Assembly (NCBI GenBank): GCA_947446595.1
Contig: CANFGS010000017.1
Span: forward strand, 1-42,220
Length of the DNA stretch: 42,220 nt
Direction: 5' to 3'
DNA from: Neisseriaceae bacterium
GTDB lineage: Bacteria; Pseudomonadota; Gammaproteobacteria; Burkholderiales; UBA11063
Shown: piece after piece, positions 1 to 4,596 of the stretch
Layout of the letters: the number at the start of each line of letters is the position of its first letter
Position numbering within the stretch: the stretch's first letter is position 1
The notes under the pieces: generated by a model
Databases searched by the model: none
The model's input: the letters and a program-made list of their open reading frames with translations, nothing else
What the model was told of the DNA's origin: nothing
Program-made: the position numbers and the translations under genes

Positions 1-2
1 AT

Positions 3-107
3 CTACATTGGTATAACATGAAGCGAGTACATCAACGATTTAACAATAAACTTACGCCATTTGAATATCACTTGGAGCTTACCAAAAATGTTAAAATAGT
101 AGCTTAA
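3..107 (+). pseudogene. Transposase C-terminal tail (IS481/IS3-like), cut by window edge
   Basis: An open frame runs from the window edge to TAA at 105-107. It encodes about 34 residues with the pattern WYN..R.H..(F/L)N...TP.EY, which matches the C-terminal end of DDE (rve-type) transposases of IS481/IS3 families. In those enzymes this stretch follows the catalytic Glu helix. The rest of the gene lies outside the window, so it cannot be said whether the element is intact. The next 140 bases (108-246) hold no gene that I can recognise. Confidence 0.6.
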
Positions 108-246: not shown

Positions 247-966
247 ATTAACATCAAACTAAGCGTGATAATGCCAGTATATCAAACTAATGAGATTTAT
301 TTAAAAGAAGCGATCAATAGTATTCTTGAGCAAACGTTTCCAGATTTCGAGTTTTTAATTGTCAATGATAGCCCCGAGGATAACAGAAGATTATTCGATA
401 TTGTTAAAAGCTACAATGACAATAGAATTATTTGGATACCATGTGGGAAAAATAGTGGTATCGCAATTGCTTCAAACACTGGGATTGAAGGTGCAAAAGG
501 CACTTTTATCGCTATGATGGATCATGATGATATTTGTATTAAAACGAGATTTGAACAACAAATTCAATTTTTGGAAGATAACCCTCACTACGGTTTTGTT
601 GGTGGACAAGCAGAAGGATTTTATCCAGATGATACTGGTGCTTTGTTAAATTACCCAACTTCATCAACAGTTGAAGAGTTAAAACAAAGTTTTTTTGATG
701 GTGTACCGTTTCTAAATCCAAGCATTATGTTTCGACGTTTAGCTCTAAACACCATAAGGTATAACCCATCATATAAAGTATGTGCTGACTATGATTTATT
801 TGCTAGACTTGTTTTTGAGCAAAATATTATAGGTACTAATTTACCAGAGGTTATACTACGTTATCGATTTCATGATGCAAATACATCTTTTAATCAATAC
901 TTACTTGCAGAAAAAGAAACAAATGAAATTCAACAATGGATTTTACACCACGAAGAAATTAATTAA
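247..966 (+). CDS. Family 2 glycosyltransferase (GT-A fold), probable ATT start
   Basis: This is a short GT2-type sugar transferase, expected to move a sugar from a nucleotide-sugar donor to a cell-surface glycan or lipid acceptor. Visible motifs are the N-terminal strand SVIMPVY, the donor-binding LIVNDSPEDN, the conserved NSGIAIASNTGI segment and the metal-binding MMDHDD (DxD type). At about 239 residues it is little more than the catalytic core, with no membrane segments. The first canonical start is GTG at 265, but that would cut off the residues before SVIMPVY. The ATT at 247, six bases after a strong AAGGTGAG, gives the typical family N-terminus IN(M)IKLSVIMPVY. Whether ATT is used or is a decayed ATG is unclear. 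It stands alone, between a transposase tail and efp, so the acceptor is unknown. Confidence 0.8.
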   Translation: MNIKLSVIMPVYQTNEIYLKEAINSILEQTFPDFEFLIVNDSPEDNRRLFDIVKSYNDNRIIWIPCGKNSGIAIASNTGIEGAKGTFIAMMDHDDICIKTRFEQQIQFLEDNPHYGFVGGQAEGFYPDDTGALLNYPTSSTVEELKQSFFDGVPFLNPSIMFRRLALNTIRYNPSYKVCADYDLFARLVFEQNIIGTNLPEVILRYRFHDANTSFNQYLLAEKETNEIQQWILHHEEIN

Positions 967-1034: not shown

Positions 1035-1610
1035 ATGAAAGAAAAAGCAGTAGATCTACGTACAGGTTGGATTATTCAGCATGACGGTCGTCAATTTGCA
1101 GTATTAGGTACTCGCACAGTCAAATCAGGAACTGGCGGCGGTGCATTTATACAAACTGAGATGAGAAACATTCAAACAGGTTCAAAGGCTCAAGTTGCAT
1201 TTAGATCAACTGATGCAGTTGAACGTTTATCAACAGAAGAGTTAGACTGTTCTTTCTTGTATAAAGAAGGCGAAGATTACGTATTTATGAATATGCAAGA
1301 CTATAGCCAAATTACAGTTACTCCAGATATAATCGGAGATGATGTTGTATTTTTATCAGATGGTATTAATGTAACACTTAAATTGGTTGATGGCGGCGTT
1401 CTTGCAGTTGAATTTCCAACAACAATCGTATGTACTGTTGTAGAAACTGACCCACAAATCAAAGGAGCTACAGCAACAGCAATGGATAAACCCGCAATAC
1501 TAGATATTGGTATTCGTGTGGTTGTTCCTTCTTTTGTCAATCTTGGCGAAAGGATTGTTCTTAAAACTGCTACTAGAGAATACTCAGAGCGTTATAAAGA
1601 GAAAAAATAA
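1035..1610 (+). CDS. efp: Elongation factor P with an extended, Lys/Arg-free tip loop
   Basis: EF-P binds between the P and E sites of the ribosome and rescues stalling at polyproline stretches. The 191 residues show the normal three beta-barrel (KOW, OB, C-terminal) arrangement, with the family signature near VVETDPQIKGATATA and a C-terminal YSERYKEKK. The start follows a clear AAAAGGA. The domain I tip loop is unusual: it reads VKSGTGGGAF (residues 29-38). E. coli EF-P has VKPGKGQAF with the beta-lysylated K34, and beta-proteobacterial EF-P has an Arg that EarP rhamnosylates. Here the loop is one residue longer, as in E. coli YeiP/EfpL (SPTARGAA), but the tip Arg is replaced by Gly. None of the known modification targets is present. 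No EpmA, EpmB or EarP gene is seen in the window. The call as EF-P family is firm; whether it is EF-P proper or an EfpL-like branch is open. Confidence 0.93.
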   Translation: MKEKAVDLRTGWIIQHDGRQFAVLGTRTVKSGTGGGAFIQTEMRNIQTGSKAQVAFRSTDAVERLSTEELDCSFLYKEGEDYVFMNMQDYSQITVTPDIIGDDVVFLSDGINVTLKLVDGGVLAVEFPTTIVCTVVETDPQIKGATATAMDKPAILDIGIRVVVPSFVNLGERIVLKTATREYSERYKEKK

Positions 1611-2946: not shown

Positions 2947-2986
2947 TAGGCTTTAGTTATATTTAATGCTTAAGGAATACAATATT

Positions 2987-3310
2987 ATGACCAAAACAAC
3001 AATACTCCCAAGTCCTTCTGCCAAAAAGATACTCGATCAATTAGGAGAGAATATAAAACTTGCGCGATTAAGGCGTAATTTCTCACAAGCAATTGTTGCC
3101 CAAAGATCTTCAATTTCCCGAAGTACATTATTATTAATCGAAAAAGGTAATCCAAATGTTAAATTTGGTGCTTATGTTAATGTACTACTATCCCTTGGTA
3201 TGCTTGATGATCTGAAACAAATTGCAATAGATGACAGACTTGGCAGAAAATTACAAGATGCTGGGCTACCTATAAGAGGTAGATCATCAAAAATAAAATT
3301 AGTTAAATAG
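2987..3310 (+). CDS. HipB-like XRE-family antitoxin/repressor
   Basis: A 107-residue DNA-binding protein that should bind and neutralise the HipA kinase encoded next to it and repress the operon. Residues about 21-75 form a Cro/C1-type helix-turn-helix: LGENIKLARLRRNFSQ, then VAQRSSISRSTLLLIEKG, where the second helix of the motif reads out DNA. The tail is basic (RGRSSKIKLVK). The ATG at 2987 has AAGGAA about ten bases before it and is preferred over the in-frame ATG at 2966, which sits in front of that ribosome site. The stop is 14 bases before hipA, the usual antitoxin-first layout. Confidence 0.85.
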   Translation: MTKTTILPSPSAKKILDQLGENIKLARLRRNFSQAIVAQRSSISRSTLLLIEKGNPNVKFGAYVNVLLSLGMLDDLKQIAIDDRLGRKLQDAGLPIRGRSSKIKLVK

Positions 3311-3324
3311 TATATGGTATTAAA

Positions 3325-4596
3325 ATGAATAAAACCACAAAAAATGTTACTATAGTTAGTGTTTATGCCAACTGGATTGGATTAGATAACCCAAGACTAA
3401 TTGGGGAATTATTGACAGATCAAGTCAGAGGAAATATAAACATTTCGTTTCAGTATAACTCTGAGTGGATAGAATATATCCAGAAAAATCAAATATCATT
3501 AGACCCACAATTAAGTCTCGATACTTGGCCACAATATTTGGAACAAAGCAAACCTAATTTTAATTTCTTACTTGACTCATCTCCGGATAGGTGGGGTAGA
3601 CAACTAATGATCAAAAATGAAGCTTTAAAAGCATATCCTAAAACTCTAAATGAGTTAGATTTTTTATTAGGAGTGAATGATTTTACAAGGCTTGGAGCAT
3701 TAAGATTCAAGATTGGAGATAGTGAGTTTCTGGATGATAACGCTAACAGTGTGCCACCTTTAGCAGATCTAAGAGAACTTGAGGCTACAAGTAATGAATA
3801 CGAACAGCAGGTGAATGAAAGTAGTCAAAGATATAGCAAAATCATCAAAAGATTAGTTGATCCAGGTTCATCACTAGGCGGAGCACGACCAAAAGCTAAT
3901 ATTAAAGACACTGATGGCAGTTTATGGATTGCTAAATTCCCTAGCATTGAGGACACTTGCGATAAAGGTGCATGGGAAATGGTAATGCACGAGTTGGCAA
4001 ATCTTGCTGGAATTAAAACCCCAGAGGCAAAGCTAATTAATTTCTCTGGAGATTATCATACATACCTTTCAAAAAGGTTTGACAGAACCAATGATAATAA
4101 GCGTATCCACTTTGCATCAGCGATGACACTACTAAATCAAAGCGAAGGTGCTAATCATACTTCTGGTGCATCATATTTTGATTTTATTGATATATTATCA
4201 AAAATAGGGAGCAATAAGTCCGCTGATTTAAACCAGTTATGGCGTAGAATTGTTTTTTCTATTTGTGTATCAAACACAGATGATCATTTAAGGAATCATG
4301 GATTTATTCTAACTCCTACTGGATGGGAACTTTCACCAGCATATGATATAAACCCAAACCCAAGTGGTAGAGGCTTAAGCCTAAATATAAATGATAGGAG
4401 TAATGCCTTGTCTTTACAAATAGTAATGAATATCGCTCCATATTTTGGAATAACTAAAGGCAGTGAAAAAAAATTAATAAACGAAATTGTTAATATAGTT
4501 AAAGAATGGCGAATTGTAGCCAAAAAATTTCACATTCGGGCATCAGAGCAATCCCAAATGGCTGATGCTTTTAAGGCAGCTATAATAATTCCTTGA
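3325..4596 (+). CDS. hipA: HipA-like serine/threonine kinase toxin
   Basis: HipA kinases stop growth by phosphorylating translation components; E. coli HipA acts on glutamyl-tRNA synthetase GltX. This 423-residue protein appears complete. The N-terminal HipA_N subdomain covers about residues 10-130. The glycine-rich loop with the autophosphorylation serine region is GSSLGGARPKA (181-191), the ATP-binding lysine is K204 in WIAKFP, the catalytic segment is SNTDDHLRNH (316-325) and the metal-binding DFG-like site is YDIN (340-343). All key residues are present, so it should be active. It follows hipB by 14 bases. A gltX gene, the classical HipA target, lies 5 kb away in this window, which may be chance. 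Composition is similar to its neighbours, but the downstream junction points to acquisition as a module. Confidence 0.92.
   Translation: MNKTTKNVTIVSVYANWIGLDNPRLIGELLTDQVRGNINISFQYNSEWIEYIQKNQISLDPQLSLDTWPQYLEQSKPNFNFLLDSSPDRWGRQLMIKNEALKAYPKTLNELDFLLGVNDFTRLGALRFKIGDSEFLDDNANSVPPLADLRELEATSNEYEQQVNESSQRYSKIIKRLVDPGSSLGGARPKANIKDTDGSLWIAKFPSIEDTCDKGAWEMVMHELANLAGIKTPEAKLINFSGDYHTYLSKRFDRTNDNKRIHFASAMTLLNQSEGANHTSGASYFDFIDILSKIGSNKSADLNQLWRRIVFSICVSNTDDHLRNHGFILTPTGWELSPAYDINPNPSGRGLSLNINDRSNALSLQIVMNIAPYFGITKGSEKKLINEIVNIVKEWRIVAKKFHIRASEQSQMADAFKAAIIIP

Follow-up and report, generated by a model that had tools for sequence, protein, structure and literature searches.

Activation of EF-P has been solved several times, namely by beta-lysylation of a lysine, by rhamnosylation of an arginine, by attachment of 5-aminopentanol to a lysine, and by loops that act unmodified. 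In its available parts, the EF-P modification literature covers EarP, the EpmA type, the Bacillus type, Staphylococcus EF-P, phosphorylation and EfpL. According to the accessible portion of PMC6544042, the loop tip in 1166 surveyed EF-Ps is K, R, A, M, N or Q, and replacement of K34 of E. coli EF-P by A, M, N or Q always gives an inactive protein, thus a small tip without modification would probably not be enough. The same portion states that Lys-type loops need P32 and that EarP-type loops are devoid of it, P. putida having Ser at this place. As for EfpL, a loop of nine residues (SPTARGAAT) is given in the available text of PMC11611912, where Ser and Gly tips of EF-P are also mentioned, in 2024, without detail. 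Among the matches listed in our literature search, whose coverage leaves out most subscription journals, no GT2-family glycosyltransferase was found as a partner of EF-P.

In the window, by which we mean the whole analysed stretch of 42,220 nucleotides, the efp gene lies on the forward strand at positions 1035 to 1610 and encodes a protein of 191 aa. It is the sole EF-P found in the genome; the second efp whose presence the original prediction had left open did not appear in a genome-wide search. The KOW-like, OB and C-terminal domains (PF08207, PF01132 and PF09285) all score above cut-off, and the AlphaFold2 model (mean pLDDT 89) is nearly all-beta with the loop as a coil, giving a normal-looking EF-P. 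Rescue of polyproline-stalled ribosomes is expected of the family and is the putative function of this member.

The β3-β4 loop, residues 29-38, reads VKSGTGGGAF and is encoded at positions 1119 to 1148 (+). As had been predicted, there is neither Lys nor Arg at its tip; K30 is the loop-base lysine and not the equivalent of K34. The range 1122-1154, assigned to the loop at first, does contain loop sequence, but it covers K30-Q40 and is shifted by about one codon. Thr33 (codon at 1131 to 1133, +), a proposed O-glycosylation site, stands at the place of E. coli K34 and of the arginine targeted by EarP if the loop is aligned from the KSG- side, the placement of the gap differing by one to two residues between two alignments. 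Ser31 (codon at 1125 to 1127, +) takes the place of E. coli P32 and would be the alternative acceptor; Ser at this position also occurs in EarP-type EF-Ps (KSGR). Both our alignment and the available text of PMC11611912 bear out the earlier statement that, compared with the E. coli EF-P loop (KPGKGQA, seven residues), there is one additional residue here. The supposed equality in length with E. coli YeiP/EfpL did not hold, as the EfpL loop has nine residues and the window loop eight (KSGTGGGA); over the loop stretch E. coli EfpL (L200:7451-8023) aligns as IQSPTARGAATLY, 13 residues versus 12 in the window.

We refer to EF-Ps with the loop KSGTGGGA as K-type. The eight loop residues, K30-A37, are identical in all 13 genomes that carry this type, with seven of the eight codons varying, in each case synonymously, and the S31 codon invariably being TCA. 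Since 132 of the 191 residues of the whole K-type EF-P are invariant, the unvarying loop is not striking by itself. It is not an assembly error either, because it is also present in G016, a genome assembled into a single contig.

The family to which the window belongs consists of one genus with 23 genomes; the window genome (G000) has 1.74 Mb in 57 contigs and is 99.98% complete. An EF-P match was obtained in 18 of the 23, comprising 13 of the K-type and five of the R-type (loop HVGGRGGA, 32-34% identical to the window EF-P), and the five genomes with no match are 59-89% complete. The remaining K-type EF-Ps are 86-99% identical to that of the window. The genus, whose K-type members are a small group of freshwater bacteria, includes Aquella oligotrophica P08T, and G016, with its contig of 2,820,660 bp, is identified as Aquella oligotrophica from the accessible part of PMC6612550. 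A scan of GTDB contigs seeded by exact short peptides returned 10 relatives at 86-99% identity and two at 37% from other lineages, and no KSGTGGGA loop was found in it outside the genus. In a sample of the order (399 genomes) only the 10 sampled K-type genomes exceed 42% identity to the window EF-P, and in a sample of the phylum (398 genomes) its best relative reaches 45%, all of the 29 best loci having PGK loops. Viral contigs yielded no relative of the K-type EF-P and one partial relative (34%) of the GT2 described below. Across these scans the loop occurs in one genus only, and no large, already described group bearing it was encountered.

The HVGGRGGA type is of interest on its own. In the 98-row tree described below, a branch with support 91 sets apart 29 rows of this type, from many families of the order (loci L014-L018, L020-L025, L027, L155-L170 and L210); the three members tested score as EF-P and not as EfpL. 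EarP is absent from 11 of the 12 scanned HVGGRGGA genomes (two of these 11 having a completeness of 52% and 68%); the twelfth, G033, in which EarP was found, has an EarP-type EF-P as well. Possibly, this type is an unmodified Arg-tip EF-P outside EfpL. Within the genus, pyrG and kdsA come after its efp in 5/5 genomes (gene names by reading), with eno after kdsA in three of the five loci; of the other two, only one is ended by its contig. We also looked at loss of polyproline as a sign of weak EF-P: Pro-Pro frequency was 0.82 per 1000 aa in K-type loci (49,915 aa) versus 0.72 in R-type loci (12,503 aa), a sample too small to be informative, and PPP occurred once in the former and not at all in the latter.

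Assignment to a class was approached with protein models and with trees from which the loop columns were omitted. The window EF-P passes both EF-P models, NF001810 (191.6 vs. a cut-off of 161) and, marginally, TIGR00038 (185.9 vs. 185.8; the EF-P of G016 scores 202.2), and fails both EfpL models, NF003392 (149.3 vs. 216) and TIGR02178 (142.4 vs. 264.05). The extended loop with an Arg tip that marks EfpL is likewise absent, the window having eight residues with Thr/Gly at the tip. A tree of EF-P and EfpL sequences, which the original prediction had called for, was built in a quick form of 98 rows and a careful form of 42 rows, the latter including five of the 13 K-type sequences. The K-type EF-Ps group in a single clade that sits on a long branch amid PGK-loop EF-Ps from a different class of the same phylum, apart from EfpL; from this placement and from the sequences themselves, the kin are read here as Alphaproteobacteria. 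Supports along the path to the K-type are 98/98, 92/90, 95/91 and 97/94, the last node joining G610, a 0.9-Mb genome that is itself on a long branch. An origin from the R-type by loss of its Arg was favoured at first from loop length and was ruled out by the AU test of a K+R clade (p 0.0006); a clade of K-type and EarP-type was rejected as well (p 0.006). The K+EfpL clade gave p 0.055, just short of rejection, so for membership in EfpL there is no formal rejection, and it is the scores and the tip residue that rule against it. A divergent EfpL turned sole EF-P of the genome would agree with this marginal value and with a loop longer than canonical; nevertheless, with EfpL scores this far below cut-off, no Arg tip and the best tree placing the K-type among alphaproteobacterial EF-Ps, we find it scarcely credible. 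Thus, of the suggested divergent branch of EF-P/EfpL, the divergent EF-P branch is supported and the kinship with EfpL is not.

Known modifiers of EF-P were searched for in 61 genomes and in 14 controls. EarP (PF10093) was found in 0/23 genomes of the family, in 30/38 other genomes of the order sample and in 0/14 controls; together with a loop free of Arg, this agrees with the earlier remark that the arginine target of EarP is missing. EpmA did not exceed its cut-off in any of the 61 genomes, two of the 14 controls being positive. Neither enzyme, both of which had been proposed for a genome-wide search, is above cut-off in G000, whose best match to TIGR00462 (232.7 bits vs. 286.9) lies in a 500-aa frame of the length of LysRS. 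The residues targeted by EpmA and EarP are missing from the window loop in any case.

Directly upstream of efp, at positions 247 to 966 (+), the window encodes a GT2-family glycosyltransferase of about 239 aa, which is our candidate modifier of EF-P. It matches PF00535 (Glycos_transf_2) with 89.3 bits against a cut-off of 23.3. D40, D91, D93, D94, D180 and D182 are invariant in 8/8 aligned GT2s, so that the DHDD and DYD motifs are kept; we take these Asp residues to be those of the DXD motif and of catalysis. No transmembrane stretch was seen in three orthologues, where the top 19-residue Kyte-Doolittle mean is 0.8-1.1. The AlphaFold model (mean pLDDT 61) is poor beyond the N-terminal half, so the fold matches indicate only GT-A/GT2; among solved structures, the closest ones belong to polysaccharide or teichoic-acid enzymes and to unassigned glycosyltransferases. 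GT2 enzymes usually build polysaccharides, and SunS is a precedent for one acting on proteins. The gene is full length in 11 of the 13 K-type genomes. The G002 copy is truncated by the end of its contig to a piece of 80 residues; in G003 a fold-back close to the contig end disrupts the 5' end of the gene (L071/L036, about 1-240), where the inverted start may be an assembly artefact or a real inversion or invertible segment. With dN/dS of 0.13-0.25 in five pairs, GT2 is under purifying selection.

The start of the GT2 gene is unusual. In the window the start at 247 would be ATT, preceded by a Shine-Dalgarno-like stretch, AAAAGGTGAG (231 to 240, +, read by eye), and the first ATG/GTG/TTG is a GTG at 265, inside the first strand. 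Twelve copies could be read at the 5' end: in seven, none of ATG, GTG and TTG occurs from the upstream stop to the first strand; in two others the sole candidate is a TTG that overlaps the Shine-Dalgarno-like stretch; and three (G015, G016 and G019) start with ATG. Frames with no standard start offer ATT or ATA after a Shine-Dalgarno-like stretch (L084, L086, L088, L089, L092 and L094). The missing start codons could mean weak expression or decay of GT2; by analogy with infC, which has a non-AUG start, use of such a start by GT2 is also possible. A non-ATG start could make GT2 sensitive to the state of translation, and this touches on a reading in which GT2 is functionally tied to the K-type EF-P but modifies another of its residues or another translation component, or in which the translation of GT2 reports EF-P activity. 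Linkage and co-occurrence (see below) fit such a reading equally well. However, no Pro-Pro pair was seen by eye in the eight aligned GT2s, so EF-P should not be required for translating GT2, and where a loop without the usual targets stands beside a glycosyltransferase, that loop is the simplest acceptor to assume. We hold this reading to be distinctly unlikely.

An orthologue of GT2 62-89% identical to that of the window is present in 13/13 K-type genomes and in 0/10 other genomes of the family, three of which have paralogues at 30-37% identity and seven none (E≤1e-20). In 38 genomes of other families only relatives at ≤37% or none were found at the same threshold, and in the scan of 399 genomes of the order GT2 (E≤1e-34) and the K-type EF-P occur in the same 10 genomes; the GT2 query covered the 61 genomes and this order sample, the phylum being sampled with the EF-P query. 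GT2 is directly upstream of efp and codirectional with it in 11/13 K-type genomes. In G016 and G019 the two genes are apart and both are kept, which counts as one event, since the marker proteins of these genomes are 99% alike. (The rpoB of G016 is split into two overlapping frames, model positions 1-729 and 721-1238 in L127 and L131, perhaps by a sequencing frameshift.) No relative of GT2 (E≤0.01) was found in 85 loci, some of them overlapping, around other efp or earP genes. Nor does any other immediate neighbour of efp recur in the 12 K-type loci compared; farther away, a few protein families recur in pairs of loci. This bears on the idea that another enzyme, as yet unrecognised, modifies the loop, e.g. 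by phosphorylating S31 or T33, and that GT2 is incidental. Phosphorylation of EF-P is indeed reported in Streptococcus suis in the accessible part of PMC12595652; still, with no other recurrent gene immediately beside efp, and with the distribution of GT2 left unexplained, we give this idea very little credence.

Loop type and GT2 were then placed on a species tree of rpoB and LysRS, in which G008 (52% complete) has a long branch and several rows are partial. Here a single clade of the 13 K-type genomes is rejected (AU p 5e-6), and the type must have changed four times or more; the tree of LysRS alone requires only two switches. GT2 follows the loop type in 3/3 independent pairs on the starred branches and in four pairs when all branches are used. 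A sign test of joint switching gives p 0.25, three or four switches being too few for significance. Read on the species tree, there are at least three joint switches of loop type and GT2. Because the K-type EF-Ps are one clade, the pair either has been exchanged within the genus or stood beside the R-type in an ancestor and was then lost repeatedly; by either route, GT2 and the K-type efp move together.

The two proteins do not evolve at the same pace. The ratio of mean distances of GT2 to EF-P is about 2.8 (78 pairs), compared with about 1.65 for EarP to EF-P, or 1.74 if the ratios are averaged (55 pairs, taken from 11 genomes after omission of one of the 12 loci, which had no efp). Over the same 78 pairs, identities correlate at 0.54 between EF-P and GT2, at 0.68 between EF-P and the markers, and at 0.37 between GT2 and the markers. 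This excess in rate and the absence of a mirror signal weigh against a tightly co-evolving pair. As a separate observation, G013 (C103) and G022 (C2) are 98% identical in the markers and 97% in EF-P but only 77% in GT2, which suggests an exchange of GT2 alleles.

At the level of the locus, GT2 and efp form a two-gene unit within a block of about 1480 bp (181 to 1657, +) that is shared with the sister genome G001 at 92.5% identity, beyond which the compared G001 flanks do not match. Elsewhere, the blocks that make up the background collinearity of G000 with G010 or G001 measure about 2-8 kb. Downstream of efp, where the shared block ends, a perfect 9-bp inverted repeat, GTCAAGCCC...GGGCTTGAC, was read directly at 1628 to 1656 and is a possible terminator; it has no T run after it and was not listed by the terminator scan, which returned three sites vs. 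1.3 expected by chance, none at the end of efp. Promoter-like sites (14 vs. 16.3 by chance) show no excess. A 34-aa tail at 3 to 107 (+), presumably the C-terminus of a transposase, points to an insertion element at the contig end (window 1-107). Remains of insertion elements flank the unit upstream in G000 and downstream in G001, there with a protein that we take to be an IS3-like transposase (L031:4316-5074). Six of the 13 K-type genomes have a contig end that falls either inside GT2 or no more than about 320 bp upstream of the gene. A mobile cassette, considered from the 1480-bp block, was set aside, as one insertion element on each side can explain the flanks. Farther downstream of efp, window positions 2966-4596 hold a weak HTH match and a HipA-like protein, a candidate HipBA-type toxin-antitoxin pair.

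The insertion-element remains adjoining the unit, together with the greater variability of GT2 and the better correlation of EF-P with the markers than with GT2, are what would be expected under the main rival to our reading. According to it, the K-type EF-P works unmodified, its lengthened Gly-rich loop reaching the P-site tRNA by backbone contacts, and GT2 is a surface-polysaccharide enzyme hitchhiking on the same small operon or mobile segment. The normal-looking model with its coil loop is compatible with this. EfpL provides a precedent for loop lengthening without modification, as the longer loop is proposed, in the available text of PMC11611912, to reach the tRNA. According to the same text, however, EfpL needs its Arg tip, the R33K exchange losing the effect, whereas the tip in the window is uncharged. 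Moreover, hitchhiking fails to explain why GT2 is kept where it is unlinked (G016 and G019) and absent wherever the loop differs. Action without modification had also been suggested in the original prediction; the strict pairing with GT2, which went unnoticed there, points to a different modification. We therefore regard this rival as rather unlikely, although it has to be taken seriously.

The reading we prefer is that GT2 O-glycosylates the EF-P loop at T33 or S31, independently of EarP, and judged from sequence comparison we give it a probability of about 0.5. Since P32 is lost, since a Thr follows the KSG- context and since a GT-A enzyme is strictly tied to this loop, the most economical interpretation is O-glycosylation at T33 or S31. 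The course of events would be as follows: a K-type, alphaproteobacterial-like EF-P would have replaced the R-type (HVGGRGGA) of the sister genomes in the Aquella genus; in its loop, S-G-T-G-G-G would have taken the place of the PGK-G-G pattern seen in its kin; and the loss of Lys would most likely have been paid for by the dedicated GT-A (GT2) glycosyltransferase encoded just upstream. What we infer is that GT2 acts on EF-P, together with the identity of the sugar, the residue that accepts it and the consequences for stalled ribosomes. The gene rmlC, for a step of dTDP-rhamnose synthesis, is present in 13/13 K-type genomes (and in 3/5 R-type genomes), thus dTDP-rhamnose is a possible sugar donor. 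Taken more widely, the locus may represent a new kind of EF-P activation, in which a Ser/Thr-Gly loop on an EF-P of alphaproteobacterial descent would be O-glycosylated by a dedicated GT2, with an origin independent of EarP, the enzyme having been exchanged or lost with its substrate several times in one genus; this wider proposal is tentative, and we rate it slightly below an even chance.

If this is true, a hydroxyl-linked solution would be added to those listed at the outset, and glycosylation of EF-P would have had an independent origin, by an unrelated glycosyltransferase. In that case, moreover, part of a genus would have exchanged a core translation factor for a foreign type, with the competing type persisting in sister lineages. 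Since the pair is present in a cultured type strain, Aquella oligotrophica P08T, the question of which loop-tip chemistry the ribosome needs becomes directly testable.

Compared with the known systems, the window EF-P shares with the EpmA-type, beta-lysylated at Lys34, the family and the domains, and the closest kin found are PGK-loop EF-Ps (45% at best in the sample); unlike this type, it has no tip Lys, no P32 and no EpmA match above cut-off in its genome. With EfpL (YeiP) it has in common a loop above the canonical seven residues and a proposed function without EpmA or EarP. Nevertheless, EfpL has nine loop residues, an Arg tip and, in E. coli, stands as a second copy beside EF-P, whereas the window protein has eight, is a single copy devoid of the Arg and falls below the EfpL cut-offs. 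The HVGGRGGA R-type of the order resembles it in its eight loop residues, in occurring in the same genus (five genomes) and in the lack of EarP in 11/12 scanned genomes, but differs by its Arg tip, by pyrG and kdsA after efp in 5/5 loci and by the lack of any GT2 found in those genomes. EarP itself is a GT-B enzyme, according to the available part of PMC5615199, and acts on Arg, whereas the partner in the window is GT-A-like (GT2, PF00535), the loop is one residue longer and without Arg, and EarP is missing from the family. Yet the resemblance to EarP and its Arg-rhamnosylated EF-P (GT104) is twofold: in many genomes of the order a glycosyltransferase gene lies directly beside efp, and the loop of the EarP type is likewise a Pro-less KSG- loop with the modified residue, here the proposed one, right after it.
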